Virus record (IMG/VR): IMGVR_UViG_3300010401_000003
Coordinates: 1-64,000 of that record
Reading direction: 5' to 3' (one strand)
Source of the DNA: a virus
DNA: 64,000 bases
Shown: in pieces, positions 34,216 to 50,923 of the stretch
How positions within the stretch are numbered: the stretch's first letter is position 1
How the letters are laid out: each line of letters opens with the position of its first letter
Notes under the pieces: generated by a model
What the model saw: only the letters and a program-made list of their open reading frames with translations
What the model was told of the DNA's origin: nothing
The model's database searches: none
Made by a program: the position numbers and the translations under genes

Positions 34216-35031
34216 TCACCGGGTGAGGAAGATCGCCGCGGCGGCGACGGCTAGAACGGCCAGGACGATGGGGCCCGCGCTCGAAGAGCCCTGACTCGAG
34301 CTCGGCGCGGGAGTCGGCGCCGGCGGCACCGGGAGGGTTTGCGCCGGGGGCGGCAAGGGCGCCGGGGTCACCGGGATCGGCGGCAGCGGCAGCGGCCATG
34401 GAAGCTCGGCTGGGTAGCCCGGTGGCCGCGCTGGAGGCCACGGAGAGCACGGCCAAGTGCCCGGGGGCAAAAGCGAGCATGCGGGGGGCGGAGTCGCGGG
34501 AAAAGCGCCGGTGGGGGGCCAGTCGAGGCCGGTCGCTTCCTTCCAGCCAGGCGGCTCCGGAACGCCCGTCCAATTTTGCGGCGGCGTGGTTTGCCCCAGA
34601 TGCCCGCTTTTGAGCGTCGTGACGGCGGCCCAGGACGCGCAGTCTTTCTGCCAAAATCCCGCATCAGTGACGAAGGAAAACGCCTTTTTCCAGTATCCCT
34701 CGCCCGCGTACCACGCCTCGATCGTGGTCGACGTGCCGGCGGGCAAGTGCGCTTTGACCCACTCGCACGCGGCGACGCGCGGATCTTCGGTCGGTTCGAG
34801 CTCGAGGTTTCCCGAGCTCGAGAAGCCGTTGACGACGAAGTGCCAAACCGGCCGCCTCGGCATAAGGGCCGAGGTGCGCGTCACAAACACTTGAGCGGGA
34901 TTCGGGAGGGAGGAGCGGACGAGCCTCGGGGTAGTCGTTTGCACCTGCACGCGCGAGGCGCTCGGCGCGACGACCACGGCGGAACGCACCACTTGTGCGC
35001 TCAGCGCGCCGGACCATTTCAGGAGGGCCAT
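34216..35031 (-). CDS. Trp-tag protein with Pro-rich region and C-terminal membrane helix
   Basis: This 271-residue protein begins MALLKWSGALSAQ, the Trp-tag. It has a beta-rich head (VWHFVVNGFSSSGNLELEP...TIEAWYAGEGYWKKAFSFVTDAGFWQKD), a Pro-rich spacer (PWPLPLPPIPVTPAPLPPPA...) and a terminal helix PIVLAVLAVAAAAIFLTR. Its ATG overlaps the previous stop. Head, flexible spacer and tail anchor suggest a protein held in a lipid layer. Confidence 0.6.
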   Translation of the reverse strand: MALLKWSGALSAQVVRSAVVVAPSASRVQVQTTTPRLVRSSLPNPAQVFVTRTSALMPRRPVWHFVVNGFSSSGNLELEPTEDPRVAACEWVKAHLPAGTSTTIEAWYAGEGYWKKAFSFVTDAGFWQKDCASWAAVTTLKSGHLGQTTPPQNWTGVPEPPGWKEATGLDWPPTGAFPATPPPACSLLPPGTWPCSPWPPARPPGYPAELPWPLPLPPIPVTPAPLPPPAQTLPVPPAPTPAPSSSQGSSSAGPIVLAVLAVAAAAIFLTR

Positions 35032-35555
35032 TAACTTTTATCCTTGGCAGTCGCGAAGGTTTGCACGAAGAGCTCGACGGCGGCGCTCGCCGCAAGCGAG
35101 TACTTCATGAGGGTTTTCGGATCGTGGACGCCGACGGCAGCGAGACCGATGCCGACTTCGATCGCACGGGAGACGAACGACACGAAAAGCCGGAGCCATG
35201 CGCCGGACTTCCCCGCTCGGATTTCGTCGGCAATCTCGCCGGACGGAAGCGGCTTTTGGCCGCGGTTGATGTAGGCGAAGGTCAGAACCGACGCTTCGAT
35301 CGCGCCTCCGGCCGCGAGCGAGTATTTCACGAGGTCCGTGCCGCGCGCGCCGGCCGCTGCGAGTCCGGCTCCGATGATGAAGGACCGGCCGAAGTAGTGG
35401 AGCATCACGGCCCAAAAGGCGCCTGGCTCTTTCTCGACGAAGGCGTTGGCGCTTTCTTCCGACGGCAGCGTCACGCCCAAAAAGGCGCGATCGATCGCGC
35501 GATCGGCGACCGCGATCGCCGTCGTGTCGATTGGGGTGTTCCACCGGAGCGCCAT
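35031..35555 (-). CDS. Trp-tag membrane protein with internal duplication
   Basis: This 174-residue protein starts MALRWNTPID. Two repeats of about 75 residues follow: GRSFIIGAGLAAAGARGTDLVKYSLAAGGAIEASVLTFA and SRAIEVGIGLAAVGVHDPKTLMKYSLAASAAVELFVQTFA (alignable), each with moderately hydrophobic helices. It is likely a membrane-associated helical bundle made by duplication. Confidence 0.55.
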   Translation of the reverse strand: MALRWNTPIDTTAIAVADRAIDRAFLGVTLPSEESANAFVEKEPGAFWAVMLHYFGRSFIIGAGLAAAGARGTDLVKYSLAAGGAIEASVLTFAYINRGQKPLPSGEIADEIRAGKSGAWLRLFVSFVSRAIEVGIGLAAVGVHDPKTLMKYSLAASAAVELFVQTFATAKDKS

Positions 35556-35564
35556 GGCCTCATT

Positions 35565-35972
35565 CTACCTTGAATCCGGGTCCTTTCCGGTGGGTGTGCG
35601 GGATCGGTAGCCGGTTTCGGTGCGCTGGAGACGCACGGCGGGTTGCTCGCGGTCGCTCGAGGGGCGAAATCCTCCGAGGCGCTTGATTCCGTCGATGATC
35701 GATCGGTGTTCTTCGGCGGCGCTCTCGCCGGTCTGCTCGATGGAAGCCGTCAGCCCCTGGACGGCATTGGTCAGGGCTTGCAGCGCCTTGGTGTTGTCGC
35801 CGATCTGATCGGAGAGCTCCTTCATGCGCTCGAGCGTGCCTTCGATCAGACGCTCCTGGTTTTTGGCGGAGGACTGCACGTAGATGATCGCGATCTTTCC
35901 CGCGAACCAAATCACGACGAGCAGGACGCCGAGCGCGCCGAATTGCAGGAGCGTGGGATCGATCACGTTCAT
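35565..35972 (-). CDS. Holin- or spanin-like membrane coiled-coil protein
   Basis: This 135-residue protein starts MNVIDPTLLQ and has one N-terminal membrane helix (FGALGVLLVVIWFAGKIAIIYV) followed by a coiled coil (RLIEGTLERMKELSDQIGDNTKALQALTNAVQGLTASIEQTGES). It overlaps the peptidoglycan hydrolase gene (ATGA). Position and shape fit a lysis accessory protein, but no family signature is present. Confidence 0.5.
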   Translation of the reverse strand: MNVIDPTLLQFGALGVLLVVIWFAGKIAIIYVQSSAKNQERLIEGTLERMKELSDQIGDNTKALQALTNAVQGLTASIEQTGESAAEEHRSIIDGIKRLGGFRPSSDREQPAVRLQRTETGYRSRTPTGKDPDSR

Positions 35973-36742
35973 GCGGCCAGCTTTTGCTTCGCGAGCTCGG
36001 CCTCTTGGATCGCGTGCCACGTGTCCATGCCGACGACGCCGTCGGGCTGTAGACCGTGATAGGCGATCTGGAACGCCTTGACCTTGGCGGCAGTCTTACT
36101 CCCGTACCAGCCGTCATCGTCGATGCCCACGACGCGCTGGACGCGCTTGACGTCTTCGCCCCGGCTCGGGATCGGCACGAGCCAGGACCACTTCAGCACG
36201 CGCGCGAGCGGATCGAAGCCGTCGGGCATCTTTTCGCTGAGTGCGACCGCGGCGCGATTGACCGCCGAGCGGAGAGCCGCGTAGTGATGCGCGACGCGCT
36301 GCGCCTTGGTGGCGCCGAAACCCCGATAGTAGTTGGTGTCGTAAAGGGCTTCGCTCACCGCATACAGATCGCCGGTTTTGGCAGCCTCGAGCACCGAGGG
36401 GCGCTTCACGTACATCACGCGCACGAGGTCGGCCCAGCCGACCTCGGGGGTTGCGTAGCGCCGGAAGCACACCTGATAGGGCACGTTCGTGCCGGTGTTG
36501 GTCGGGTTGGTGTCCGTGTAGAGAAAGCTCGTTGCCGGATTGCAAGGTGGATTGCCAGCCTGGATCGCGCCGATGTTGTTCGAGCCCGCGCCGTCGCCGT
36601 GCCAGCCGGCGCCGTAATCGGTCTCGAGCCAGCCGACACCTTGGCAGGCTTGCAAAACCGCGCGCAGCGGCTCAGCCTGGACGCCGAAGTTTTTTTCGTA
36701 GCCGCGCGTGGTGTAGAGGCGCGCGTCTTTGTGCGTCGTCAT
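35969..36742 (-). CDS. Peptidoglycan hydrolase with C-terminal PG-binding domain
   Basis: This 257-residue protein starts MTTHKDARLY. Residues to about 170 are homologous to the Trp-tag hydrolase at 37608-38300 (YQVCFRRYATPEVGWADLVRVMYVKRPSVLEAA vs YQACFRKYASPDEGFTHFIQVLYKQRPKVLAAA) and resemble glucosaminidase/lysozyme-fold enzymes; Glu in WLETDYG is a candidate acid. The C-terminus (GEDVKRVQRVVGIDDDGWYGSKTAAKVKAFQ) is a PG_binding_1 domain. It is the likely endolysin, as it lacks Trp-tag and membrane helix. Confidence 0.7.
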   Translation of the reverse strand: MTTHKDARLYTTRGYEKNFGVQAEPLRAVLQACQGVGWLETDYGAGWHGDGAGSNNIGAIQAGNPPCNPATSFLYTDTNPTNTGTNVPYQVCFRRYATPEVGWADLVRVMYVKRPSVLEAAKTGDLYAVSEALYDTNYYRGFGATKAQRVAHHYAALRSAVNRAAVALSEKMPDGFDPLARVLKWSWLVPIPSRGEDVKRVQRVVGIDDDGWYGSKTAAKVKAFQIAYHGLQPDGVVGMDTWHAIQEAELAKQKLAA

Positions 36743-36882
36743 CGAGCCCTCCTTGCCATTTGCCAAAACAGCGCGATGAAGCCCACGACCAAAACGGCAC
36801 CGATGAAGGTCAAGCGCTCAGAGCGCGGCAGCCGATCGAATGGCAAGCCCAGCGTCATCGGTTTTTCCCAGCGGAGTATCAT
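36739..36882 (-). CDS. 47-residue Trp-tag single-helix membrane protein
   Basis: ATG 36882 overlaps the previous stop and the TGA overlaps the next ATG. The protein begins MILRWEKPMTLGLPFDR, the Trp-tag, then has one membrane helix (LTFIGAVLVVGFIALFW) and a basic tail (QMARRAR). It is the minimal form of the Trp-tag plus anchor build and, next to the hydrolase gene, might also act as a pinholin-like peptide. Confidence 0.6.
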   Translation of the reverse strand: MILRWEKPMTLGLPFDRLPRSERLTFIGAVLVVGFIALFWQMARRAR

Positions 36883-37372: not shown

Positions 37373-37611
37373 ACCTGGACAGCTACGAAGCCGACACGGA
37401 GACCGACGTGCGGATCGCCGATCATATAGGTCACTTGGACGTAGCAGGTCGGACCCGTGTACTCGCCCGCGTCCGCTGACCATTCCCGCAGCTTCAGGAT
37501 GTCGCCGAGGAGAATCGGAGGTTGCGCTTCGCAGATCAGAAAGTGGAGACGCTTCTCGGCGATCGCCCGGTAGGTGGGGATGTGGAGTTTGATTTCGCGA
37601 AAACCGCTCAT
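37321..37611 (-). CDS. Beta-rich hypothetical protein
   Basis: This 96-residue protein (FREIKLHIPTYRAIAEKRLHFLICEA...CYVQVTYMIGDPHVGLRVGFVAVQVKIKIL) is an all-beta-looking domain. The ATG overlaps the previous stop. No family recognised. Confidence 0.55.
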   Translation of the reverse strand: MSGFREIKLHIPTYRAIAEKRLHFLICEAQPPILLGDILKLREWSADAGEYTGPTCYVQVTYMIGDPHVGLRVGFVAVQVKIKILTDRVRMPSSGS

Positions 37612-38300
37612 GCTGCACGACTCACCACTTTCGTTAGCACGTAGATCGCGCCCGCCACCAAGGCCACCAATCCGATCGCTGCGCCCGCACTGGCCCCCTG
37701 GGCAACACCGCCAGATCCGCCGCCACTCGGCATCGGCTCGTTCCGCGCTTTGGTGATCGCCTGGAGGTTCTTGGTCATGGCGGCAATGTGTTTGCTCAGC
37801 GCGAGCTCGAAGTAGTGCGACTCGCGGAGCGTCTTCGAGAAATTCGCGATGTCGCCCATGTTGGCCGCCGCGAGCACCTTCGGACGCTGCTTGTAGAGTA
37901 CCTGGATGAAGTGCGTGAATCCCTCATCGGGCGAAGCGTACTTGCGAAAGCATGCCTGGTAGGCTGTGCTTCCATGCTCGGGACCGCGATGGTCGGTGGC
38001 CTCGAAGCAGCTGCTCGAGCAGGGCGGCAGACCGCACTGCACCGCGCCCATGTTCCAGGTGTTGCAAGTGGTCGTGCCAGCGGGGATGTTTTTGTAGCAG
38101 GCTTGTCCGTAGTAGGACTCGCCGCGCGAAACGGCTTGCGCGAATTGGGCCTCTAGTAACGTCGGCGTTCGGCCGAAAACGACCTTGAACGCGTTTTCGA
38201 TGAAGGTGCGGGCGGAAACGTCGCTTATTTGTGCCGCACCGAGGCCGACTTGGCGCGCGCCAAGCACTCTCACTTCACCGAGCCAAAGAAGCTTCGACAT
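37608..38300 (-). CDS. Trp-tag, membrane-anchored peptidoglycan hydrolase
   Basis: This 230-residue protein starts MSKLLWLGEVRVLG. The middle is a paralogue of the hydrolase at 35969-36742 with AVSRGESYYGQACY (Glu in GES as candidate acid), NMGAVQCG and YQACFRKYASPDEGF; several Cys pairs suggest disulfides. A Gly-rich linker leads to a C-terminal helix (GAAIGLVALVAGAIYVLTKVV). Being tethered, unlike its paralogue, it is more likely a virion-borne entry enzyme. Confidence 0.65.
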   Translation of the reverse strand: MSKLLWLGEVRVLGARQVGLGAAQISDVSARTFIENAFKVVFGRTPTLLEAQFAQAVSRGESYYGQACYKNIPAGTTTCNTWNMGAVQCGLPPCSSSCFEATDHRGPEHGSTAYQACFRKYASPDEGFTHFIQVLYKQRPKVLAAANMGDIANFSKTLRESHYFELALSKHIAAMTKNLQAITKARNEPMPSGGGSGGVAQGASAGAAIGLVALVAGAIYVLTKVVSRAA

Positions 38301-39949
38301 TAGCGCCGACGCTTTCTGCCGCGGGCTCGTCGCTTGTGCGCGCGTTGGGCGGAGCGCTGCACTTTCGGCGAGCGATAGCCCAGTCGCACTACGCGCTCAT
38401 GGGGCGCTGGACCTTGCGGCAAATCGCGGATTCCTGCCTCGGTCGGTCCGCGCCGCAGTCGCCGCGACACCATTGTGGCTGCCGCATCTTGAGAAGGCGC
38501 TCCGCTGACTCGATAAACGGTTCCGTCATGGTTGTCATAGACGTAATACACGCCAGGCGGCGTCTGTGGAGATTCGGCTTCGTCCAGTGGCGTCTTCTTG
38601 AACCAACCGGACCAGAAGGCGTTCTCGTTGCTCGGATTCGAACGTGCCGCTGGCCGCTTCGGCGTGGCCGCTGTAGCACCGCTACTTCCGCCACCGAATA
38701 TCGCCGCGCCGAGACCGAGGAGCGCGAGCGCCCCGACCGCAATCAGGATGCCAGTGTTTCCGCCACTTTCCGAGCTCGAAGGCGTTCCCCCGCCCGGGAT
38801 CGGAGTCGGAGGGATCGGCAGGGGCGTCACGACGCAGAGCTTGCTCACCGGATCCCAATGGAAGCCGGGATCGCACTGCGTGACGTCGCTCGGATTTCCC
38901 GGAACGGGAGTCGGCACGCGCGGAAGCGGCACTTGCGGAGTCGGCGCCGACGGAACCGGAGCGGATGGCGCCGGCGCGCTCGGAAATCCGGGGTTCGGGA
39001 GCTGTCCGGGGACGATCGTGATGCCCTTGGCCTGCGCCCAGACTTTCAACGAGTAAAGGCCCTGGGTCGTCAGGTCTTGCCACGCGATTTCGTTTTTCGT
39101 GGTGGGATTCGGGAGCGGTGGCGCCCATCCGGATTTGTTCCACCAGTTGTAAAAGTTCGCGAGGGTCCAGCCGTCGCGATCGCCCCAGACGAGCGAAATG
39201 TCGGCCGGCTGAAGACCATAGCTGCCGATCGAATTGTTTCCGTCGGTTCCGTTCCATGCGGCGAGAATCGCCTTGGCCATCGCGACGTCGGCGTCGGGAA
39301 GAGCGCCGAGATCGCCGGGACCTTGGATGGTCACGGGAGGCCGATAGCGCGAGGTCGATGGAAAGATCGGAGCGATCGTTGTGAGAGGCTGGCGATATCC
39401 CGGGGGAGTTGGCATCGGTGCCGGGAGAGTGGGCAGGTAGGGAGGAATGCACCCGAAGCTGCCGTCGTCATGGACGATCTTCGAGTAGCCCGGAGGGCAC
39501 GTGGTTTTGATTTGGGTGCCGGTGCTCAGAACTTCGTTGAGACTCTTCGAGACAGGGTCATAGCAATAGTAGTTAGCATTCCCACTGCCGGCGCTTTTGC
39601 TGAAATCGAAGGGTTCGAAGTTGGCGCCTTTCGGCACGAATTCGAGCGCGCACACCTTGAGCGGCTTCGATGTTTTCTTGGACCATTGCTCATAGAGCGC
39701 GCGCATGCGCTGTACGGCGACCCAGCGCAAAACCGTGTTGAAGGTGATTCCGCTCTGAAGTGGGAAATCTTCATGCACATAGTCATCGCCACCCGGGAGC
39801 GGGAAGACGGGGAATGGAGCCGCTGCGTTGAAAACGTAAATCTTCCACGCACCGCTCGTGTTCCACCACTGCCACTCGGCTGGCGTCATGCCGAGCTGCC
39901 CCGGCGCGCCGAGCACTTGGACCTTTTCTTCTAGCCATCGCATCGACAT
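38300..39949 (-). CDS. 549-residue Trp-tag protein with TDGNN/NWW domain
   Basis: It starts MSMRWLEEKVQVLG. An N-terminal domain (EWQWWNTSGAWKIYVFNAAAPFPVFP...) is followed by a Cys-pair module (CPPGYSKIVHDDGSFGC), then a domain (about 240-340: DVAMAKAILAAWNGTDGNNSIGSYGLQPADIS...RDGWTLANFYNWW) shared with the next gene. After it come a Pro-rich stretch, QCDPGFHWDPVSKLC, a membrane helix (TGILIAVGALALLGLGAAIF) and a long basic C-terminal domain (ends KRRARGRKRRR). The basic tail beyond the helix could contact nucleic acid inside a particle. Confidence 0.6.
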   Translation of the reverse strand: MSMRWLEEKVQVLGAPGQLGMTPAEWQWWNTSGAWKIYVFNAAAPFPVFPLPGGDDYVHEDFPLQSGITFNTVLRWVAVQRMRALYEQWSKKTSKPLKVCALEFVPKGANFEPFDFSKSAGSGNANYYCYDPVSKSLNEVLSTGTQIKTTCPPGYSKIVHDDGSFGCIPPYLPTLPAPMPTPPGYRQPLTTIAPIFPSTSRYRPPVTIQGPGDLGALPDADVAMAKAILAAWNGTDGNNSIGSYGLQPADISLVWGDRDGWTLANFYNWWNKSGWAPPLPNPTTKNEIAWQDLTTQGLYSLKVWAQAKGITIVPGQLPNPGFPSAPAPSAPVPSAPTPQVPLPRVPTPVPGNPSDVTQCDPGFHWDPVSKLCVVTPLPIPPTPIPGGGTPSSSESGGNTGILIAVGALALLGLGAAIFGGGSSGATAATPKRPAARSNPSNENAFWSGWFKKTPLDEAESPQTPPGVYYVYDNHDGTVYRVSGAPSQDAAATMVSRRLRRGPTEAGIRDLPQGPAPHERVVRLGYRSPKVQRSAQRAHKRRARGRKRRR

Positions 39950-39955
39950 GGAACA

Positions 39956-40576
39956 TCACCTCAAGAGCAGGGCAGCAAGACCGAGCACCGCGCCGACGAT
40001 CGCAAGGACGCCCACCGCCCCAATGCCCTCCGAGCTCGGCGCTGACGTGATCGGCGCGGGCGGCGCCGGTAGGGGCGTCTGATTCGTCGGAACCGGAACC
40101 GGGATCGGTACGGGCACCGGAACTGGTTGAGGTTGCGTGCGCGGACCGCAGGCCGCGAGACAGGTCGCGAGATTCGCGAGATCGCCCGCGTACTTCTGTT
40201 GACACGCAAGCGCGCAGTTGACGGATGGCGCCGGAACTTGGCCGGGATTGATGACGCCCTTTTCCACGCCCCATTGCAGAAGCGCCTGGAGATGCTCGGG
40301 CTTCAGATCGATCCAGGTGTACGAGCCGGGCGCGGGGAAGACCGCGGGCTGCTTGTTGTTGGCCTTCCACCAATTGGCGAAGCAGGCGAGCGCGTTTCCA
40401 TCGCGCGTTTTCCACGTGGTCGGATCGACGTCGTCCGGCTCGAGGCCGTAGCCGGTGACGCAATTGTTGCCGTCGGTTGCCACGAACGAAGCGAGCAACG
40501 CCTTGGCTTGCGCGTTCGAGGGCGCGTCGAGAGCACCCAAGAAGTCGACTTTCTTTTCTAGCCAGCGCATGCCCAT
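39956..40576 (-). CDS. Trp-tag protein with TDGNN/NWW domain, CX3C pair and C-terminal helix
   Basis: This 206-residue protein starts MGMRWLEKKVDFLG, very close to the previous entry. The shared domain reads ALLASFVATDGNNCVTGYGLEP...RDGNALACFANWW. CALACQQKY...CLAACGP forms a twin CX3C motif. A Pro-rich spacer and GIGAVGVLAIVGAVLGLAALLLR end the chain. Probably a virion membrane protein; it may be a shortened duplicate of its 549-residue neighbour. Confidence 0.6.
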   Translation of the reverse strand: MGMRWLEKKVDFLGALDAPSNAQAKALLASFVATDGNNCVTGYGLEPDDVDPTTWKTRDGNALACFANWWKANNKQPAVFPAPGSYTWIDLKPEHLQALLQWGVEKGVINPGQVPAPSVNCALACQQKYAGDLANLATCLAACGPRTQPQPVPVPVPIPVPVPTNQTPLPAPPAPITSAPSSEGIGAVGVLAIVGAVLGLAALLLR

Positions 40577-40579
40577 GAC

Positions 40580-41158
40580 TCACCTCGAGAGAAAGAATGC
40601 CGCGAGGCCGATCACGATACCCGCGATCGCGAGCGCCACGCCGGTGCCGCCGCCGGACGCCGCGGGCGTCGTAGAGCTCGCGGGCGGCGTCGTCGTGCCA
40701 CCACCGCCGCCAGATCCGGGACGGGGGATTTTCTTACCGCCGGGCGTGCCTTGCGTCGTGGGACCGAAGCCGCACTTCTGGCCGCACTGAATCGCGGCGG
40801 CTTTGAGCGCCGCTTCGTCGGTGCCTACCGCTTCTTGCTGGAAGGCGTCCATACATGCGTTGAAGCACGGGCTCACCTTTGCGCCGACCTTCTGCATTTG
40901 CTCGTGGTCGACCAAGATCCCCGCGCCGCACGCTTCGGTCATGCACTGGTTCACGCACGGCCAAATCAGAAGTCCGCCCCAGCCGCCGATGCCGATCGCG
41001 GTGCAGATCGCGTAGCAGGCGTCCTGGTTATAGAGGTTTGCCTGGCACGCGGAAGTGGTCGGCTCGGTGAAAAGTCCGACGCCAACAGGCGCAGCAAGGC
41101 GGCCGTTCCAGCGAACTGAGGAACGCGGGCCGACCTGGCCGCGCCAAGCTACGATCAC
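40580..41158 (-). CDS. Trp-tag protein with multiple CX3C motifs
   Basis: This 192-residue protein starts at GTG 41158 (GTGA overlap) with MIVAWRGQVG. It has CYAIC, CVNQCMTEAC, CFNACMDAF and CGQKCGFG, i.e. repeated CX3C pairs spaced by helices, then a Gly/Thr/Pro linker and a C-terminal helix (GVALAIAGIVIGLAAFFLSR). Helical hairpins stapled by CX3C disulfides are a known build (small Tim-type); here it suggests an extracytoplasmic or virion-exposed domain. Confidence 0.6.
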   Translation of the reverse strand: MIVAWRGQVGPRSSVRWNGRLAAPVGVGLFTEPTTSACQANLYNQDACYAICTAIGIGGWGGLLIWPCVNQCMTEACGAGILVDHEQMQKVGAKVSPCFNACMDAFQQEAVGTDEAALKAAAIQCGQKCGFGPTTQGTPGGKKIPRPGSGGGGGTTTPPASSTTPAASGGGTGVALAIAGIVIGLAAFFLSR

Positions 41159-41526
41159 GGGTTTGCTCTCATGTGCCCGCGTCCGCCCGCGAACATGATC
41201 GCCGCGGCGACCGCGAGCGCTCCGCCGAGCAACCACACGATCACAGGGACGCCCGCCGTCGCCGACGAGCTCGCGGGCGCGGGGGCCGGCGCGGGAGTCG
41301 GGGTCGGCGTCGGCGCGGGGACCGGAATGCCGGCGTTGATGACTTCGCCGATTTTAGCGGGGAGCTCCGCCGGGGTGAGGCCGCACGCCTTGAGGCACGG
41401 CTCGATGCACGTGAGGAACGGGCGAGCGTTGGCGCACGATTGCGCGCAAAGCGCCTCGCAGTTCGAGAGGGCGCCGAGGCGCCCGTTCGGGCGGAGGGCG
41501 ACTTGTCCTGACCAGGATTGGATCAC
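41155..41526 (-). CDS. Trp-tag protein with twin CX3C domain
   Basis: This 123-residue protein starts MIQSWSGQVALRPNGRLG. The domain CEALCAQSCANARPFLTCIEPCLKACG has a twin CX3C pattern, then a Pro/Ala/Thr linker (PVPAPTPTPTPAPAPAPA) and a membrane helix (VIVWLLGGALAVAAAIMFAG) with a basic end. A compact version of the 192-residue neighbour. Confidence 0.6.
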   Translation of the reverse strand: MIQSWSGQVALRPNGRLGALSNCEALCAQSCANARPFLTCIEPCLKACGLTPAELPAKIGEVINAGIPVPAPTPTPTPAPAPAPASSSATAGVPVIVWLLGGALAVAAAIMFAGGRGHMRANP

Positions 41527-42734: not shown

Positions 42735-43624
42735 CAGCGTGGTCCTTTCGGTAAATCTTCGCAGCACGGGAAAAGCTCGACGGCCAAGCCGCCCGCGACT
42801 CGTCCGTAAACGACCGGCAAGGGTGAATCGAGCTCCTCGAAGGCAGAGACGAACTGATCCTCGGGGCGACCGACGCCCGCAGGGATGTTGAGGCCACAAC
42901 GGCTGACCGGATTGGTCTGATGCACCGAGGCGTAGAAGGTCACTCGCCCAGGGCCGAGCACCGGGATCGAGAGCTCGCGCGCCGTCGGGTCGAGATAGCG
43001 CATGTCGCGCCACGTCCCGAGCAGGTCGACGTCAGCGCCAGGCGGGATGCCGGCGCCGGGGGGCTTGTACGGCAGGAACGGCGGCACATAGAGCAACGCC
43101 GCATCCTGGCCGCTCATCGAAGGGCTCGCGCCGTCCGGTTGCGCGGGATCGTTGACCGACTCGGGGGAGAAGCGGTGGGGCTCGTAGCGCAAATGCCAGG
43201 AGATGTTTCCGTCCTGGAAGTGCCAGCCGGGGGAAGTGATCTCGAGCTCGACCGGGACCGGTCCGCACTCGGTGCTGCGCGATTGAGGCACGGTGCGAAT
43301 CGTCGCGTACTGCCAAATGCCGCGGATCACGATCGCGCGCTTCTTGTCGATTTCGACTTGAAGCAACCGAATCAAGTAGCGCTCAGCTTGCGATCGCGTC
43401 GCGTTGTCGGGCACGCGCACGCCAAGCGCGCTCGTGTCTCCCAGCCACGGCGTCGAACCGATGCCGAGCAAGTCGGGATCGAACGACTGCGTGAAGAGCT
43501 CGATCACCGCGCGGCAGTCCCAACGCGGATCGGCGCTCCCCAAAAACGAGGGATGGCCCACGACGCCCGCGCGCTTGGCGCGCTCGGCAGAGAGAGAGAT
43601 TACGGATTTGGCGTTTGCCGACAC
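42734..43624 (-). CDS. Probable structural protein of the capsid module
   Basis: This 296-residue, beta-rich protein (RAIVIRGIWQYATIRTV, VPVELEITSPGWHFQDGNISWHLRY, LSIPVLGPGRVTFYASVHQTNPV) has no membrane helix or Trp-tag. With the two genes upstream it forms the only run of non-anchored, beta-rich proteins in the block, so a minor capsid or vertex role is plausible. No family recognised. Confidence 0.5.
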   Translation of the reverse strand: MSANAKSVISLSAERAKRAGVVGHPSFLGSADPRWDCRAVIELFTQSFDPDLLGIGSTPWLGDTSALGVRVPDNATRSQAERYLIRLLQVEIDKKRAIVIRGIWQYATIRTVPQSRSTECGPVPVELEITSPGWHFQDGNISWHLRYEPHRFSPESVNDPAQPDGASPSMSGQDAALLYVPPFLPYKPPGAGIPPGADVDLLGTWRDMRYLDPTARELSIPVLGPGRVTFYASVHQTNPVSRCGLNIPAGVGRPEDQFVSAFEELDSPLPVVYGRVAGGLAVELFPCCEDLPKGPR

Positions 43625-43638
43625 GGGCTATTCCCCTT

Positions 43639-44352
43639 TCAGGGGCAGCCCGGCCCCAAATCCCTCGGAGCGAAAACGCCCTCTGCCTGGAGCTCGTCGA
43701 TGATCTGCGTGAAGTCGCAGCCGTTGTAGAGACCGGTCGGAAGCCGCGTCCCGTGAAAGGTGATAATCGCCTCGGTCGGTACTTCGTCGGCTTGAAGAGT
43801 GCGGAGGTTCGTGAAGAGGGCGTCGAAGGTGGCTGAGCACTTCAAGACCAGGCCGGCGGGGCAGACGCACTCGAAGACCGCTTCGATGTTCTCGAGGGGG
43901 GTCGGCTCGGTGTTGATCAGGTAGTTGCAGAACGAGTGGATGATGAGCGAGTTCAGGTCGATGTTGGGGTTCAGGCGATTGAAGTAATCGGACTGAGCCT
44001 TCCAGATCGATCCTGCCGCGAAGTTCGGGCGGCGCACCGTGTAGGTGACGCGCCGGATCCAAATGTCGCTTTCGACCGTGCCGAGCATCTGACCCAGCAC
44101 GGGCTTGTCCGCCGTGGTCGCATCCCAACGCGCTTTCACGCTGAGCATCACCCAGCCGTTGGTCTCGGTCACCAGCCAGCCGTCGCCAGCCATGCGGTAG
44201 CCGAGACCCTTTTTCGCGGCCTGCAAGAGCGTGTGCGCCAGCCGTGGCTCTTGGAGGGCGATCCCTCCGAGCCATTGCGGCGCCGCCGCTCGGCGCGCCC
44301 GGGCGAGCGCGGCCGAAACCTCGTCGCCCGGAGCTGTGTTGGGTGCGTTCAC
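43639..44352 (-). CDS. Probable structural protein of the capsid module
   Basis: This 237-residue protein has a helical N-terminus (SAALARARRAAAPQWLGG) and a beta-rich body (WLVTETNGWVMLSVKARWDATT, SDIWIRRVTYTVRRPNFAAGSIW, AVFECVCPAGLVLKC, EAIITFHGTRLP). It lies 41 bp downstream of the candidate major capsid gene. Possibly a penton or minor capsid protein; inferred from position only. Confidence 0.5.
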   Translation of the reverse strand: MNAPNTAPGDEVSAALARARRAAAPQWLGGIALQEPRLAHTLLQAAKKGLGYRMAGDGWLVTETNGWVMLSVKARWDATTADKPVLGQMLGTVESDIWIRRVTYTVRRPNFAAGSIWKAQSDYFNRLNPNIDLNSLIIHSFCNYLINTEPTPLENIEAVFECVCPAGLVLKCSATFDALFTNLRTLQADEVPTEAIITFHGTRLPTGLYNGCDFTQIIDELQAEGVFAPRDLGPGCP

Positions 44353-44393
44353 TGGAGTGTGGCCTTGCCGATGACCTTACTTACCCGACGACC

Positions 44394-45578
44394 TTACTTC
44401 GCCGAGGCGAGGAGGTTGTCGAATTGCTTCTTGACGTCTTCCGGCAGGCCGTTCAGGGCGCCGCGGTTCGCGATGAGCTTGCTCGTCAGGTACGAGCCGA
44501 TGCCCACCTGCTGGTAGAGCATTTCGAGCGCGCTTCCCGAGGTCACTCCCGCGAGGTACTCCACGCAAGCCGCCGGCACGAGGTCGTAGCCCGCGAGGAC
44601 CGCGCCGATCGTGAAACAGCCACCCGGCACCGTGTAGATCCCGGCGTTGCCCGAGCCGCACTCGAGCGTGTCCGTGAACTGGCTGCTCGGCAGAGTCGGA
44701 GTGGCGCAGTCGAGGACCGCGTCGCGCCGCATCGCCGGGAAGAAGCAGCAATCACCCTCGACGCGCGTGAAACGGACGTCGATGGTCATGCCGGGCAACC
44801 AAAGGATCGGGAACGGCAGCGGATAGCAGCGGTTCGAGATGCCCTTGGTGTGCTGGCTTCCCCACATCGCTTCCGCAGTCGGCGCGGGCATGCACTCGCT
44901 ACCAGCGGCGGTGTTCTGGGGGATGAATTGCTTGTTGCAACCCTTGGCCACGAGCACGTCGTTGACGTCGCGATTGAACGGAGTCGTCGAGATGAGCGAG
45001 GTGCCGCTCCCGACGAATTCCATGGTCGCTCCGACGAGACCCATGACGTGGGCCGCTTCCTCGAAAATCTGGAAATGCCGTCCGATGAACATCGAGACGC
45101 GGTACGCCTGGAAGAACTTCTCGATGATGTTCCAGGTCGGGTAACCCCATGCGAGCACCGCGTTGTGCTCGTCGAGCGCGCCGGTGCATCCGGTCACGCA
45201 AGGGGTCGGTCCGCCCGAGGCGACCACGTTCTTCATGACGCCCGTGAGCGCGAAGCCCTGGCCCTCTGCGGTCGCCAAGATGCCGAAGCCCATCATGAGG
45301 AACGGAGTCTCGACGGTCGTCCCGCGCGAGAGATTGGTCTGGCGACCCGGGCACGCTTGCGGCTGGTCGAGCGTGAAGAGTCGGATTTCCCCGGGGAATG
45401 CCGCGTCGAATTCCTCGGGCGTCATCGGCAGTTGGTACTGCGCGATGTCGTAGAGGCGAGCGGTCAAGCGCGAGAGCGGGCTCTTGCCGGCCGTGATCTG
45501 GCCGAGGATGCCGCCCTTGTGGGTCGGCTCGATCTGCGAAAACTGCTTGTGGTCTGCCTTGATAACTTCGGTCGCCAT
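44394..45578 (-). CDS. Candidate major capsid protein
   Basis: This 394-residue protein has no membrane helix, Trp-tag or low complexity. Alternating strand-like segments (PTPCVTGCTG, RVSMFIGRHFQIF, GATMEFVGSGTSLIS, YPLPFPILWLPGMTIDVRFTRVEG, GIYTVPGGCFTIGAVLAG) and length near 390 suit a double jelly-roll capsid protein; the 'LPFPI-L-PGM-IDVRF' strand is reminiscent of such proteins. It has its own 102-bp upstream gap, the longest in this stretch, and neighbours that look structural. GQITAGKS near residues 26-33 mimics a Walker A but lacks the flanking strand and a Walker B. Assignment rests on context and pattern, not proven homology. Confidence 0.45.
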   Translation of the reverse strand: MATEVIKADHKQFSQIEPTHKGGILGQITAGKSPLSRLTARLYDIAQYQLPMTPEEFDAAFPGEIRLFTLDQPQACPGRQTNLSRGTTVETPFLMMGFGILATAEGQGFALTGVMKNVVASGGPTPCVTGCTGALDEHNAVLAWGYPTWNIIEKFFQAYRVSMFIGRHFQIFEEAAHVMGLVGATMEFVGSGTSLISTTPFNRDVNDVLVAKGCNKQFIPQNTAAGSECMPAPTAEAMWGSQHTKGISNRCYPLPFPILWLPGMTIDVRFTRVEGDCCFFPAMRRDAVLDCATPTLPSSQFTDTLECGSGNAGIYTVPGGCFTIGAVLAGYDLVPAACVEYLAGVTSGSALEMLYQQVGIGSYLTSKLIANRGALNGLPEDVKKQFDNLLASAK

Positions 45579-45680: not shown

Positions 45681-47531
45681 TCAGACTTCTTGCGGCGCTT
45701 CGTCCATGTTCCAGAAGGAAATGGTCCCGGAGGGTCGCTGACGAGCAACAACCTTCTCGGGCTGTTGCGGCTGGCCGTTCGCCTTTTCAGGGGCGGCGCC
45801 GGCCATCGTTCCGGCGGCGGTCATGACCGTCGTCGTGGGGGGCGTGATCAACACACGCTCCGGGCCGCCAGGAATGGGAGCGATGGTCTCGGTGACGACC
45901 GTGCCCGAGGGGACATACGGAGTCGACGGAACGAGCGGCACACCGGCGGGGACTCCGCCTTTGCGCTGTTCGACCACCAAGCACATGCCGTACGGCAAGC
46001 GCACCGAGTTTCCGACCACCCAGTAGGTGTCCGGAGTGCCACCATTCATGGCGGAGACTGCGTCGATCGAGACACCACCGGCGGCGGCGATTTCGGCGAG
46101 ATCATCGCCGACTTCCACCTCGTAGGTGCACTCGGTGTACGGGCGGTAGCTGTCGCCACAGCCCGGACAGAGCGATTGGCAGTCGCTGTAGCAACCGTCT
46201 TTTCCACCGCACGATTGGCAGTTTCCAAGACGGTTCGTTTGGAGGAACGTCCGCGGATTTTGGCCGGAACCCACACTGCCCGCGGGGTCAGTTAGGGCTT
46301 GCGCTTTTCCCTGGGGGTTTGCTCCCAAGACCGCGAGGTTGGTCGTCTGGTCGCCGAGGGGCGAGTTGATCTGAGACGCTTCCCCTTGCTGGCCCGCCGA
46401 AAGCGAGGGCACCGTCGCCCAAGCCTTGAACGACGCATCGATCGCCTTCTGCACCGAGTCCTGCTCGAGTGCGTACATGCGATTCGCGAAGGACATCGGC
46501 TTCGCCGGGTCGACCTTCAGGATTGCCGGCATCAGGTACCAGTTAGCGAGCTTGAGGAGCGCGTTCGAGCCGAAGCCGAGCGCGATACCCGAAGCGAGCC
46601 ACGGGATGATGCCGCGACCGCGCGTCCAAGCTGCGAGGCCGAGGGCGACGACGCCGCCCACAACCTGCACGCCGAGGCGCGTGGCGTCCGGCCGGCGGTA
46701 GATCGCGGCAGCCGCGTCTGCGCCGTACCAGGCATTTTTGCCGTCCTTCGGCTTCATGGTCGCGACGACGCGATCCACGAAGTCGGCGACCAAGAGCCCG
46801 ATCGCCACGCCGGCCGCAGCCGTGCCGTACCGAACGAGGTTTTCTCGGGTGTAGGGGCTCGCGGGATTCGAGAGAAGCCCGCCGATCCCGGGATTTTCGA
46901 GCATGGCCATTTCGCGGCGGGTCAAACCACCGGCGAATTTGCCGCTGCGCGTACGTTTGTACTTGCAGGGCGGGCAACGCCGACGCGAAGACCGGCGGCG
47001 CGAAGCCGCTCGAGTCGTCCGGCGACGCTTCCGGCCTCCACCGTGGCGGCGTTTCCGCCACCCCTTCCGGGCCGCTCGAGCATGCCGGCGGGGCTGACCC
47101 GGCCAGGCGTTCTCGAGGGTCACGGTGGTCGGATTTTCGTTCTGGGCCGCGGCGGCCGCTCGGCGCCGCTTCGGGCGTCGGCGTGCCTTTCGGCGGCGGC
47201 GGCGGTTCTCTTCGTACCGCCCACGATTGTCCGCGACGCGGCGACGCTTGGCGTAGCGACGCTTTCGCGGATTGGCCGAGGCGCTCGCAGCGGCGCGGCG
47301 GCGACGGCCACCACGCTTCTTGCGACGAGCGGCTTGCGCCTTTCGGATGTTCTTTCGAGCAGCAGCGATCTGAGCGCGAGTTGCCATCTTGTTCTCTTCG
47401 TGGGCCTTCAGCGCGTCAGCACGACGCGGCGATTTGATGCCAGGATTTTCGAGGTAACGAGCGATTTGCGCTTTTACGCGCAAAGCGACTTTCGTCGGCT
47501 CCGCACACGCACACGCCACGTTTCTCGCCAT
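45681..47531 (-). CDS. Protamine-like, membrane-anchored LysM protein
   Basis: This 616-residue protein (start 11 nt after the previous stop; ATG 47387 is an alternative). About residues 50-200 are extremely Arg/Lys-rich, e.g. RRKKRGGRRRRAAASASANP and RKARRRPKRRR, broken by N-P and ENP motifs, and include CPPCKYKR. Two or three hydrophobic helices follow (LVRYGTAAAGVAIGLLVADF, LGVQVVGGVVALGLAAW, IIPWLASGIALGFGSNALL). Then a Cys-rich patch (CQSCGGKDGCYSDCQSLCPGCGDSY) and a LysM domain (TYEVEVGDDLAEIAAAGGVSIDAVSAMNGG). DNA binding by the basic part and peptidoglycan binding by LysM, on opposite sides of a membrane, is inferred. Confidence 0.65.
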   Translation of the reverse strand: MARNVACACAEPTKVALRVKAQIARYLENPGIKSPRRADALKAHEENKMATRAQIAAARKNIRKAQAARRKKRGGRRRRAAASASANPRKRRYAKRRRVADNRGRYEENRRRRRKARRRPKRRRAAAAAQNENPTTVTLENAWPGQPRRHARAARKGWRKRRHGGGRKRRRTTRAASRRRSSRRRCPPCKYKRTRSGKFAGGLTRREMAMLENPGIGGLLSNPASPYTRENLVRYGTAAAGVAIGLLVADFVDRVVATMKPKDGKNAWYGADAAAAIYRRPDATRLGVQVVGGVVALGLAAWTRGRGIIPWLASGIALGFGSNALLKLANWYLMPAILKVDPAKPMSFANRMYALEQDSVQKAIDASFKAWATVPSLSAGQQGEASQINSPLGDQTTNLAVLGANPQGKAQALTDPAGSVGSGQNPRTFLQTNRLGNCQSCGGKDGCYSDCQSLCPGCGDSYRPYTECTYEVEVGDDLAEIAAAGGVSIDAVSAMNGGTPDTYWVVGNSVRLPYGMCLVVEQRKGGVPAGVPLVPSTPYVPSGTVVTETIAPIPGGPERVLITPPTTTVMTAAGTMAGAAPEKANGQPQQPEKVVARQRPSGTISFWNMDEAPQEV

Positions 47532-47542
47532 GCACGAAAAGA

Positions 47543-48130
47543 TTATGGCCAGCGAAATCCGTGCTCGTCAACAATACAGCCGCGCGGAAGCGGCAAACGC
47601 CACCCCAAAGTGCGCTTGCTATAACGCACCTCAACGGGCGGATCGTATTCGTGCTCGAACGGCTTGTCGAAGCCCGGACGCCGATAGCGAATGAGACGCA
47701 CGCGCGCTAAGCGCGCCCACGGTCCCTCGGGAATTTCCACCGATCCGTAAGTGAGAGGAAGTGGGCGGTCGTTCTGATCGACGAAGTACTTTTCTGCGTC
47801 ATCGAGCACGTCGCCAGGTGCGTTTTTCGCACCTCCTCCGCGCGCTCGAACAATATACAAATCGCACCGGTCCAAAAGTGCGCCGGTCGTGTCGTGCACG
47901 AGCACATACCCCCGCGGGAAGGTCACGTCGGCCGCCGGCATGCGCGGTTCCCAGAAGACTTCGCGCTCTCCGTTTGGACCGGTCGCGCGCACGATGCGGC
48001 GCGCGCCGGAGTTTCGCACGCGTTCGACGGACACGAATTGGATGTTCGTGCCGCGCACGATCATGTGGTGCGTGTAACACGCACCGGTCGTGCAATCTTC
48101 AGCTTCGACGATGCGGCCGGAGTCCGTCAT
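47543..48130 (-). CDS. Hypothetical protein, probable virion component
   Basis: This 195-residue beta-rich protein (HHMIVRGTNIQFVSVERVRNSG...GYVLVHDTTGALLDRCDLYIVRARG...RVRLIRYRRPGFDKPFEHEYDPPVEVRY) has no membrane helix. ATG overlaps the previous stop. Family unknown. Confidence 0.55.
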   Translation of the reverse strand: MTDSGRIVEAEDCTTGACYTHHMIVRGTNIQFVSVERVRNSGARRIVRATGPNGEREVFWEPRMPAADVTFPRGYVLVHDTTGALLDRCDLYIVRARGGGAKNAPGDVLDDAEKYFVDQNDRPLPLTYGSVEIPEGPWARLARVRLIRYRRPGFDKPFEHEYDPPVEVRYSKRTLGWRLPLPRGCIVDEHGFRWP

Positions 48131-48996
48131 TAGGCCGCTCGCGCCAATTGACGACTCGGCGGAAGCGCGCGCGAGCTCGAGCGCGCACCCGCAGGCGGCA
48201 CCAAGCGCACGAGTGCGTAAAGCACACCGAGACCGAGCGCGACCAGCGCGACGGTCTTAATCGTGTTCGTGATGTCGGTAGTGGGCTGACTGCCGGCTTT
48301 GATTTGCTCGACCTTCTGCGCGCGCACCGCAGCGGCGCCGGTGTAGATCGATTGATTGAGCTTCGCGGCTTGGTCGGGCGTGCATTTTCCGGTCGTCACG
48401 CACTCGTAGGATTTTTCCGCGATCGTGCGCATCGTCTTTTGCTCGGCGACGTCAGTGATGTTGTTGACCGCTTTCTCGACCGCCCAGTACGCGGGCAGAG
48501 CGAGCACCGTGACGCCCAAGGTGGTAGCCCACACGATCGCGGGCACTCCGACTTGCCCTTGCACGTGCGTTTGCTCACCCGCGGGATTCACGATGATCGG
48601 CACGTCGCCATTGAGCGCCAAGCGCACGACGTCCGATGAGAGCCCCTCGATTTCGAATTGATTCTTTTCCGTGTTCCAAGCGACTTTGCGCTTTCCGGCG
48701 ATCGCGTCGTTTAGGGCGTCGGTGATGATCTTCACCATCGCCATCGCGTCGACTGCGTTCTGATCGAGATCCGAAGACCACGCCGACGCGCTCGACATGC
48801 CCGGGACGGCGCCACCCTCCGGGCCGGCGCCGTCGACCAGGAACGGCAGGCCGAGATTCTGCCGGACCGTCTTTAGCCCGGTGTAGGCGGCGACAGCTCG
48901 CGTCCACGAGCCTTGCAGGTTGTCGCGGAGCGCCGTGAGGTACGCTTCCCAGGCTTTTTCGTCGGCCGGCTGGCCCAGCCATCGCAGCTTTTTCAT
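48130..48996 (-). CDS. Trp-tag protein with two membrane helices
   Basis: This 288-residue protein starts MKKLRWLGQPADEKAWEAYL at an ATGA overlap. A long helical N-terminal domain is followed by a first membrane helix (VPAIVWATTLGVTVLALPAYWAV), a helical section with CVTTGKCTPDQ, and a second helix (TVALVALGLGVLYALVRLV) with a basic tail. Fits a virion membrane protein. Confidence 0.6.
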   Translation of the reverse strand: MKKLRWLGQPADEKAWEAYLTALRDNLQGSWTRAVAAYTGLKTVRQNLGLPFLVDGAGPEGGAVPGMSSASAWSSDLDQNAVDAMAMVKIITDALNDAIAGKRKVAWNTEKNQFEIEGLSSDVVRLALNGDVPIIVNPAGEQTHVQGQVGVPAIVWATTLGVTVLALPAYWAVEKAVNNITDVAEQKTMRTIAEKSYECVTTGKCTPDQAAKLNQSIYTGAAAVRAQKVEQIKAGSQPTTDITNTIKTVALVALGLGVLYALVRLVPPAGARSSSRALPPSRQLARAA

Positions 48997-49154
48997 TTGT
49001 TGAGTCTCGCTCGGTAGATGTTGATTGCCAGGGAAGTCGCTGAAATCAGCAGGCCCACGATCGCAAACCACTCGATCCGCGAGAGCCTATGGCCGTCGCC
49101 CGGGATTTCCTCGGGAGCGGCGGAAACCTGACCGGACCAGCGCAAAATGGCCAT
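48993..49154 (-). CDS. 53-residue Trp-tag membrane protein
   Basis: Reads MAILRWSGQVSAAPEEIPGD, a short hydrophilic part, one membrane helix (IEWFAIVGLLISATSLAINIY) and RARLNK. The TGA overlaps the ATG of the next gene. With the 47-residue protein at 36739 it is the simplest member of the Trp-tag family. Confidence 0.6.
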   Translation of the reverse strand: MAILRWSGQVSAAPEEIPGDGHRLSRIEWFAIVGLLISATSLAINIYRARLNK

Positions 49155-49164
49155 CGCTCGCCCT

Positions 49165-50157
49165 CTAGAGTAGCGCCCAAATCACGAGCGCGACAATGCC
49201 GGCGCCGATCGCCAAGGGCGCGATGCTCGATCCGCCGCCTCCGCCGCCGCTCCCGGCGGCGGCGACATTCTTGAAGTCGATCTGCGATTTCAGCTTTTCG
49301 ATGAGCGGCTCCATCGATTTGCTCGGGAGCTCCGTCAAGCACTGCGGATCTTCACCGTGCATGTTGCTCGGCGTCTTCGGGTCGAAGACGTTGAAGAACC
49401 CCGCTGGGCAGTCGCCCTTACTCTGAAACCAGCTCGAGGCATTCTCCATGCGCCCGACCGCGAACCAATCGATCGGCTCGCCGGGCTTGGCGATGGGGCC
49501 GAAGTTACCGTTGAAGTAGGTCAGCCAAACGTAGTCCTTGCAGGTCAGCTTTTCGTTGACGATGCCGAGCTTCTTGGCCACCGCGCACTCGTCGAGCGCC
49601 GTCTTCGTCAACTCGAACTTCTCATACGCTTGCGCCGCCGCGTAGCGCTCGGCGCTCGGCGCAAACTTCGAGAACACCGGCGCCGGTGGCAAGCCCGCTT
49701 CAGTCAGCGCCACGTCGGAAGCGCCTTGGCTGATGGCCAGATCGCGGAGCGTCAAATACGACTTGACGGCAAGGATGCCCTTGGCCGCGCGCTTGGCACG
49801 CGGGGCGGTGAAGTCGTTCCAGGTTTCCGAAACCAAGTCCTCCATGGTCGATCCCTTGGCCACAGGGATCGATTTTCCGATGAAGCCGCCGATGATGCCG
49901 CCCAAGATCGCGCAGCCGCCCGCGACTGGAGCAGTCACTACGAAGGCCGAGCACGCCGCAGCGCCACCAATTGCGCCGCCCACCTCGCCGTAGGCTTTCA
50001 GATCCGCCGAGCTCGTGCCGCCCTTCCGCTCGATGATCTCTCTCGTGAGCGGATTGGTTGCCTTGTCCATTCCGGAATACGCGCCGAGGCCGACGGGCCG
50101 CCTCGAGCTCGGCGAAAGCACGAGCGGGACAGACGCATTCCAGATAAGGGCGGACAT
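49165..50157 (-). CDS. Trp-tag protein with glycine zipper and C-terminal helix
   Basis: This 330-residue protein starts MSALIWNASVPLVLSPSSRR. Residues about 50-95 form a glycine-zipper membrane region (GEVGGAIGGAAACSAFVVTA, GGCAILGGIIGGFIGK). A helical middle (LTLRDLAISQGASDVALTEAG) with Cys residues follows, then a poly-Gly linker and IAPLAIGAGIVALVIWALL. Glycine zippers often mediate membrane insertion or oligomeric pores, so a role in membrane penetration is possible. Confidence 0.6.
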   Translation of the reverse strand: MSALIWNASVPLVLSPSSRRPVGLGAYSGMDKATNPLTREIIERKGGTSSADLKAYGEVGGAIGGAAACSAFVVTAPVAGGCAILGGIIGGFIGKSIPVAKGSTMEDLVSETWNDFTAPRAKRAAKGILAVKSYLTLRDLAISQGASDVALTEAGLPPAPVFSKFAPSAERYAAAQAYEKFELTKTALDECAVAKKLGIVNEKLTCKDYVWLTYFNGNFGPIAKPGEPIDWFAVGRMENASSWFQSKGDCPAGFFNVFDPKTPSNMHGEDPQCLTELPSKSMEPLIEKLKSQIDFKNVAAAGSGGGGGGSSIAPLAIGAGIVALVIWALL

Positions 50158-50176
50158 CGCCTCACCAGTTTAAGAG

Positions 50177-50923
50177 CTAGCCGGGACAGCGAGCAAGCGT
50201 GAGCGCTCTTTCGAGCGTCCGATCACCCGGCTTCCACACGACGCGAGCTCGGAGGCCGCGCAAGCCGTCAACGCCAATGAAAACGCCCTTGTCGACGAAG
50301 TTTAGCCGGTCGGGATCGAAGGACCTTCCGCCGCCCGCGCCGATGCACACTTCGTCGTCGCAAATCACCTTCACGTTTGGGACGGAGAGGATCCGCTCGT
50401 AGGTGAAGGGGACGCATTTGCCGAGCTGGTAGTCGGTCGACGGATCGCCGTAGTGCCAGCGGCCGTCCAAGTGCGCGGCGCACAGCACGTGCTCGATGTT
50501 GTGCTCGTCGTCGTACGCATGGCCCACCACCAAGGTGTGGATCCCGACGGACATCCAAGCCGCGCCGAGGAGCGTCGCGACGCCGTCGCAATCGTCGCCA
50601 CGAATGCAAACCTTGTTGGGGTTGGTCTTCGGATCGCACGCGAGCAAGGTCGCCGCCGGCATGTATTCGGCCCCGATTGGGTCGGGCACCCATAATTTCT
50701 TCTGGACGGCGGAAAGGAGAATGCGCGCGCGGTCGTTCGGGGTCTTGGCGCTCGAGAGGCCGCGTTCGCGGGCCACGTCGAGCATTTCGATCGCCCAAGT
50801 GCGCACGCCCGGATCGATCGCGCCCTTCGAGACGCGCTTGGCCACTTCGTCGAGCGAGCTATTGACGCCCGCTTTGCCGAATGGGTGCTCGCGTTCGGTT
50901 ACAGCAGTCCAAGGGGCGGGCAT
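50177..50923 (-). CDS. Transglutaminase-like protein with intact triad
   Basis: In this 248-residue protein, GDDCDGVATLLGAAW (C112), EHVLCAAHLDGRWHYGDP (H145, D160) match the transglutaminase-like Cys-His-Asp triad. Such domains in phages are usually hydrolases or amidases of unknown target. The 613-residue fibre (13087-14928) carries a copy without Cys and His. The N-terminus MPAPWTAVTEREHP may be a weak Trp-tag. No membrane helix is visible. Confidence 0.7.
   Translation of the reverse strand: MPAPWTAVTEREHPFGKAGVNSSLDEVAKRVSKGAIDPGVRTWAIEMLDVARERGLSSAKTPNDRARILLSAVQKKLWVPDPIGAEYMPAATLLACDPKTNPNKVCIRGDDCDGVATLLGAAWMSVGIHTLVVGHAYDDEHNIEHVLCAAHLDGRWHYGDPSTDYQLGKCVPFTYERILSVPNVKVICDDEVCIGAGGGRSFDPDRLNFVDKGVFIGVDGLRGLRARVVWKPGDRTLERALTLARCPG

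Follow-up and report, generated by a model that had tools for sequence, protein, structure and literature searches.

The 64,000-nucleotide stretch of viral DNA analysed here (the window; positions 1 to 64,000 of record IMGVR_UViG_3300010401_000003) carries, between 34 and 51 kb of its minus strand, a family of proteins that begin with a similar short tryptophan-containing sequence (the Trp tag), together with three conserved coat-like genes (42734-43624, 43639-44352 and 44394-45578). The whole record is 73,644 bp long and has a direct terminal repeat of about 124 bp at its ends, which indicates that the genome is circular, complete and about 73.5 kb in size. Gene calling based on codon usage gave 107 genes, to which two short genes were added; genes are named below by their lower coordinate. 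Four genomes, all uncultured, were compared: the window record (G000), its closest relative IMGVR_UViG_3300005440_000009 (G001, 77,617 bp), IMGVR_UViG_3300012532_000215 (G002, 41,280 bp), found by aligning protein 50177 with gp34 of phage SSIP-1, and IMGVR_UViG_3300005844_000040 (G003, 43,599 bp), found via coat-like protein alignments. The coat-like proteins of G002 and G003 share about 28-50% identity with those of the window. Both contigs may be incomplete; G002 stops right past the orthologue of 42734 and may therefore lack the greater part of its tagged genes.

Twelve genes of the block, all on the minus strand, encode tagged proteins. The first (34216-35031) specifies a Pro-rich protein of 271 amino acids (aa) beginning with MALLKWSGAL and carrying a C-terminal transmembrane (TM) helix at residues 252-270. 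The tag of the next one (35031-35555, 174 aa, MALRWNTPI) is degenerate and its body contains an internal hydrophobic repeat. As an earlier note on this DNA had pointed out, two members are almost only tag plus helix: 36739-36882 (47 aa, MILRWEKPM, TM 24-42, 100% identity in G001) and 48993-49154 (53 aa, MAILRWSGQV), whose syntenic versions in G002 and G003 have 66 aa and 62 aa and carry WLGQ. Gene 37608-38300 encodes a glucosaminidase-like lysin (230 aa, MSKLLWLGEV, C-terminal TM), which has an untagged paralogue at 35969-36742. The largest member, 38300-39949 (549 aa, MSMRWLEEKVQVLGA), has a TM helix at residues 400-418 followed by a basic tail of 131 aa and shares a domain with 39956-40576 (206 aa, MGMRWLEKKVDFLGA, C-terminal TM). 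Two Cys-rich proteins, 40580-41158 (192 aa, MIVAWRGQV, with a tag that is unchanged in G001 at 46% overall identity) and 41155-41526 (123 aa, MIQSWSGQV), also have a C-terminal TM helix, and in 41523-42734 (403 aa, MALVKWIDPV) the TM helix precedes a basic tail of 32 residues. The protein encoded by 48130-48996 (288 aa, MKKLRWLGQPA) has orthologues that keep WLGQxA in G002 (MSKISPEWLGQAA) and G003 (MSAIQWLGQAA). Finally, 49165-50157 (330 aa, MSALIWNASV, C-terminal TM) has a degenerate tag, and the syntenic proteins of G002 and G003 begin with MITWLGQ and MITWLGR, respectively.

The earlier note had counted about thirteen such proteins. Twelve of them stand, with the Trp at residue 5 (35031, 36739, 38300, 39956, 40580 and 41155) or at residue 6 (34216, 37608, 41523, 48130, 48993 and 49165). 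The thirteenth, 50177-50923, which the note had listed as a weak case, was rejected as a family member: its orthologues do keep a Trp, but the residues around it are different and specific to this gene (MPAPWTAVTEREHPFG / MAAPDWKPKIERREHPYG / MPWEPRIEKRDHPFG). A Trp at residues 4-7 is found in 14 of the 24 minus-strand genes at 34-51 kb (the 14 include 50177 and also 37127, whose membership was likewise rejected) versus 8 of 85 genes elsewhere (Fisher P = 1.7e-6), so early Trp is not equally common outside the block. Given the Trp frequency of the genome, the binomial probability of the count in the block is 3e-10, and across the first 60 residues of the same proteins the count is at most 5/21 in any other stretch of 4 residues. 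The core W-[LSR]-G-[QEA] is found in 6 of the 12 members. The other six (35031, 36739, 38300, 39956, 41523 and 49165) have hydrophobic-x-W only and are assigned to the family because of their position, their conservation in G001 and, for 49165 only, synteny.

The divergent relatives keep the Trp in WLGQ-type tags. In G002, the syntenic genes begin with MSKISPEWLGQAA for the orthologue of 48130, MASSRVTWLGQGA at the place of 48993 (66 aa, TM) and MITWLGQAQQ at the place of 49165 (C-terminal TM). Eleven tagged proteins were found in G003, including unrelated extra ones with M23 peptidase, CAP, transglycosylase or Cys-rich bodies; their tags are MITWLGRPRWLGQQ, MGTVRAVTWLGQEV, MSAIQWLGQAA, MTQIQWLGSAA, MVEWLGQALL, MAIQWLGSAR, MNLTWLGAPA, MITWLGQAPL, MHAYAHLGQVTL, MGSRVEWLGQAA and MHVYSHLGQAEL. 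Start codons of G002 and G003 were picked among alternatives, and the Trp or His lies between residues 4 and 9. The consensus of those 20 tags that have W-x-G without a gap is [LVI]-x-[W18/H2]-[L16/S3/R1]-G20-[Q15]-[A/V]. The forms WSGQV, WRGQV, WLGEV and WLGQP of the window are degenerate versions of this W-L-G-Q tag. The pattern W[LSR]G[QEASR]/HLGQ occurs 12 times at N-termini of G003 and 5 times in its other 12,004 positions (P = 3e-12); the corresponding counts are 3 versus 1 in G002 and 6 versus 2 in G000. Furthermore, a matrix trained on the tags of G002 and G003 only places 48130, 40580, 41155, 48993 and 37608 among the top N-termini of the window. At a threshold of 4, it yields 8 matches where 1.07 would be expected, and six of the 8 fall inside the block; among these six, the match of 38300 is in a register that differs from its Trp, and the six hydrophobic-x-W-only members would escape this matrix. 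No N-terminal tag was found on orthologues of 42734, 43639, 44394, 45681 and 47543 in any genome compared.

Identity to G001 is 90-100% for most genes of the block but falls to 70% in 38300, 72% in 39956 and 46% in 40580; the tags of these three are nevertheless intact (MSMRWLEEKVQVLGAPGQ, MxMRWLEKKVDFLGALD and MIVAWRGQVGPRSSV, respectively). Between the two genomes, codons 2-12 of the twelve tagged genes show 14 synonymous changes and 1 non-synonymous change, versus 376 and 342 in codons beyond 21 of the same genes (Fisher P = 0.001, to be taken as indicative only since counts were pooled over genes and three fast genes dominate the body ratio). This contrast places the signal in the protein rather than in the RNA, and indicates that the tag is maintained by selection at the amino-acid level while the bodies diverge.

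In agreement with the earlier note, most members end in one membrane helix: 9 of the 12 have a predicted C-terminal TM helix, and in two others the helix is followed by a basic tail, of 131 residues in 38300 and of 32 in 41523. The tag is associated with a C-terminal TM helix in G000 (P=3e-5), G003 (P=0.03) and G002 (P=0.01) alike. The C-terminal helices of tagged proteins resemble one another (GGIGGGGLLLLAG.../GGIGAGGLFLLAA..., KSSALPVxIGxAxAAG). The bodies, described as unrelated, are so by blastp apart from orthologues, with the exception of the pair 38300/39956, which shares a domain of about 100 aa (42% identity). Searches of Pfam and PHROGs with the tagged window proteins returned no family for most of them. 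The lysin 37608 has a weak glucosaminidase match in Pfam and shares its lysin domain (31% identity) with the untagged 35969, which has a peptidoglycan-binding domain in place of tag and helix; this arrangement is as expected for a soluble lysin beside a particle-bound one. Among the tagged bodies of G003, Pfam recognised CAP (m29394, E=4e-26), Peptidase_M23 (m31412, E=6e-18) and, below the cut-off, a transglycosylase SLT domain (m33083, E=1e-3).

Five untagged conserved genes, all on the minus strand, separate the two parts of the family. The coat-like protein encoded by 42734-43624, whose start is likely upstream of 43507, shows 48% identity in G002 and G003. The second one, 43639-44352, has the tag-like sequence PQWLGGIALQEPR near residue 27; its three-sequence model is beta-rich, and in a search of the PDB with this model its best match was a virion protein of SPV1 (probability 0.82, E = 0.018), HHIV-2 ranking 35 and none being significant. 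Polyhedrin matches from the same fold search were dropped as artefacts of the low-confidence model. Gene 44394-45578 encodes the candidate major capsid protein (394 aa), with relatives of 33-37% identity in G002 and 28-31% in G003 and an uninformative single-sequence model (pLDDT 31). Adjoining it, 45681-47531 (616 aa, conserved in G002 and G003) has an Arg/Lys-rich N-terminus of about 200 residues, then hydrophobic segments and a LysM-like stretch, and is a candidate DNA-condensing membrane protein; 47543-48130 is also conserved in both genomes. Beyond the last tagged gene, 50177-50923 (minus strand) encodes a homologue of the structural protein gp34 of SSIP-1; the window protein has a conserved core of the DCDG/H/D type. 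Its orthologues in G003 (L022:16567-18321) and G002 (L015:7840-8991) have an intein-like Hint insertion before the conserved core Cys-Asp, with a LAGLIDADG motif in G003, whereas the window gene is uninterrupted; a segment of another window protein (13087-14928) resembles the end of this insertion.

Taken together, we consider it fairly probable that the tag docks tail-anchored proteins into the particle of a virus with an internal membrane. The earlier note had suggested that the common leader is one sorting or docking signal, and this idea gains support from its conservation in divergent relatives, from selection at the amino-acid level and from the unrelated catalytic bodies and C-terminal anchors encoded in virion-type gene blocks. 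Moreover, the module adjoins conserved coat-like genes and the homologue of gp34 from SSIP-1, a membrane-containing icosahedral phage; the internal membrane itself is inferred from this homologue and from the number of anchored proteins. The tag consensus hydrophobic-x-[W/H]-L-G-Q-[A/V], of about 8-10 residues, would serve as the docking signal and, combined with a usually single C-terminal TM helix, would give particle-bound proteins a two-point attachment. The helix would anchor the protein in the viral membrane, and the tag, probably a short strand headed by Trp, would be caught at a site that recurs in the lattice of the shell or in the layer between shell and membrane; its binding to the capsid lattice is plausible. 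The body in between would be interchangeable (peptidoglycan hydrolases, CAP, Cys-rich or Pro-rich domains), and the tag-plus-helix proteins of 47-66 aa would be bare staples. The recruitment of many different minor proteins by internal-membrane viruses is poorly understood. If this reading is true, a transferable tag of fewer than 10 residues would account for the modular swapping of entry enzymes, would provide a simple rule to predict virion proteins in uncultured viruses of the group, and would offer a means of loading cargo into a protein shell lined by a membrane.

Several observations weigh against this proposal. Half of the window members have hydrophobic-x-W without W-x-G-Q, the W-L-G-Q tag is absent from SSIP-1, and the tagged protein m30969 has no TM helix. 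The coat model of 43639 is of low confidence (pLDDT 48), and these uncultured viruses are known from their sequences alone. Positive charge follows many of the TM helices, and the positive-inside rule would place such C-termini in the cytoplasm, so that the tag may face either side of the membrane. In addition, the module is not confined to N-termini, since the G003 protein m26474 (L023:6474-8360, 628 aa) has internal tag units at about residues 110 (ELGQVTLRSP) and 247 (WLGQVTLKSP), as if several tagged units had been fused, and is a possible polyprotein.

The tie between tag and C-terminal TM helices, and the short hydrophobic-aromatic nature of the N-terminus, would also suit a signal for membrane insertion or for the assembly site: read by a host or viral chaperone or insertase, it would bring tail-anchored proteins to the virion-forming patch without being a capsid ligand. 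This is unlikely, since tail-anchored insertion is usually specified by the C-terminal helix itself, m30969 carries the tag without a helix, and the TM-bearing module proteins 45681 and G003 20292 are untagged. Common ancestry alone, i.e. duplication of one tagged and anchored gene with a passively kept 5' end and a replaced middle, would explain the tandem arrangement, the likeness of the C-terminal helices and the domain common to 38300 and 39956. However, passive relics would decay, whereas the tag has accumulated a single amino-acid change and persists where body similarity is gone. As sole explanation, common ancestry is contradicted by the selection pattern and is quite unlikely, although it does not exclude docking: duplication may well be the route by which the tag spread, selection then maintaining it.

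Two other explanations fare worse. The position at gene starts, and TGGCTCGG, which is common in the tags of G003, could be expected if the first codons were a translation-initiation or RNA element with incidental amino acids. Yet the codons for Leu (CTC/CTT/CTG/CTA), Gly (GGT/GGC/GGA/GGG) and Gln (CAG/CAA) vary freely among tags, synonymous changes predominate and the distance from start codon to Trp varies; this very improbable signal was rejected on account of the synonymous codon variation. The finding was chosen by eye, as a chance pattern or gene-calling artefact might be, but the likelihood of such an origin is made negligible by the P values (1e-6 to 1e-12) and by the independent recovery of the tag in two divergent genomes.

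An extension of the docking proposal concerns the coat and the spikes. In two G003 proteins, the tag is extended to LGQVTL[RK]SP. The expression [GS][QE][VIL]x[LA]x[SD]P has 9 matches in three proteomes versus 0.22 expected in shuffled proteins: 3 tag units (WLGQVTLKSP, HLGQVTLRSP and ELGQVTLRSP), 2 orthologues of the coat-like 43639 at an aligned site near residue 30 (LGQVAAYDP and FGEVALADP) and 4 spike-like N-terminal modules of the window (such as SGQIQLSSP and GGQLQLSSP). At the aligned site, the window 43639 has PQWLGGIALQEPR, which ranks 26 among 40,253 segments when scored without the Trp column. As the expression was written after the sequences had been seen and the spike modules are paralogous, these counts serve as a lead only. 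The spike/fibre-like proteins, all on the minus strand (11433-12011, 16760-17140, 17452-19119, 19122-20780 and, next to the tagged block, 33357-33977), have different bodies and a second common N-terminal module, LKxxSGQLQLSSPxGxW (LKAASSQLQLTSPVGNW in 33357), a separate putative docking module whose GQxQLxSP core is possibly related to the Trp tag. Tag, coat protein and spikes might even form one docking code, in which a single kind of recurring groove accepts the same strand from internal anchors, coat arms and spike bases and the tag mimics the arm of the coat protein; we hold this tentative idea to be rather unlikely.

Repeated scans of viral contigs converged on G001, G002, G003 and SSIP-1, and scans of genome contigs found no cellular relative. 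There was no match for the window capsid protein in phage records (tblastn), for the conserved coat-like protein of G003 in plasmid and phage records, or for the Rep in phages. The tag marks a coherent family of viruses whose database relatives are almost absent, and the window virus belongs to this little-known group of uncultured, apparently tailless bacterial viruses. No terminase, portal or protease was recognised among the proteins scanned, which covered part of the genes only, and a pattern search of the 73.6-kb record gave no plausible open reading frame for a Walker-A packaging ATPase. The minus-strand gene 55254-56783 encodes a rolling-circle Rep-like protein (only 66% identity in G001), whose match to REP_ORF2-G2P (E=4e-4) falls short of the Pfam cut-off. 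The circular genome, in which no credible packaging ATPase was seen, has at about 73.5 kb an unusual size for one with a G2P-type Rep. G003 encodes a family A DNA polymerase. In the window, three consecutive paralogous glycosyltransferase-like genes (26215-31615, minus strand, 31-39% mutual identity) form with a C-methyltransferase gene (24399-25673) a virus-borne sugar-modification cassette.

Among known viruses, SSIP-1 shares with the window virus the structural protein gp34 (24% identity with 50177-50923, E=4e-10), and several of its gene products also finish in a hydrophobic stretch. It differs in encoding an ATPase, of which no credible Walker-A type was found in the window record, and when the coat-like proteins were compared, profile against profile, with the structural proteins of SSIP-1, the gp34 homologue was the sole match, with no common structural-gene block. 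The same pattern search sets the 73.6-kb record apart from Sphaerolipoviridae/Simuloviridae-like single-jelly-roll viruses, which have a packaging ATPase; as to the two single-jelly-roll major capsid proteins of that group, the window offers the beta-rich model of 43639 (pLDDT 48) with its non-significant PDB matches. Membership of Finnlakeviridae (FLiP) was rejected given the genome of about 9 kb in FLiP; as to the Rep and the double-jelly-roll major capsid protein of that family, the window offers the sub-threshold match of 55254-56783 (E=4e-4) and the single-sequence model of 44394 (pLDDT 31).

In encapsulins and in microcompartments, unrelated cargo is bound to the inside of a protein shell through short terminal peptides (targeting peptides and encapsulation peptides, respectively). 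These shells are cellular and their cargo is soluble and lacks a membrane anchor; no relation is claimed. In membrane-containing viruses, P16 of PR772 is a membrane protein that clamps capsid subunits and anchors the vertex to the membrane (PMC6750898), and capsid-membrane clamping has been modelled for PM2-like viruses (PMC9719478). P16 of PRD1/PR772 and the minor membrane proteins of PM2 are TM proteins that clamp the capsid to the internal membrane, as is proposed for the proteins described here; they are, however, dedicated proteins, and we found no report of a short tag common to a dozen unrelated proteins. The earlier note knew of no described signal of this kind, and a non-exhaustive literature search indeed found no description of this tag. 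Nevertheless, the capsid-targeting sequence (CTS) of phage T4 does the same job: the internal proteins of T4 vary widely and have just the conserved CTS in common, which can also carry foreign proteins into the head (PMC3012670). Sequence and virion type differ, T4 being a tailed phage that lacks a membrane and has a scaffolding core, to which its CTS leads proteins, whereas the tag described here pairs with C-terminal anchors. In both cases, a short conserved sequence is the sole common element of diverse proteins, internal to the virion in T4; here it is N-terminal and under selection at the protein level. Hence, the Trp tag may be viewed as analogous to the CTS of T4, its closest functional counterpart, with no sequence relation claimed.

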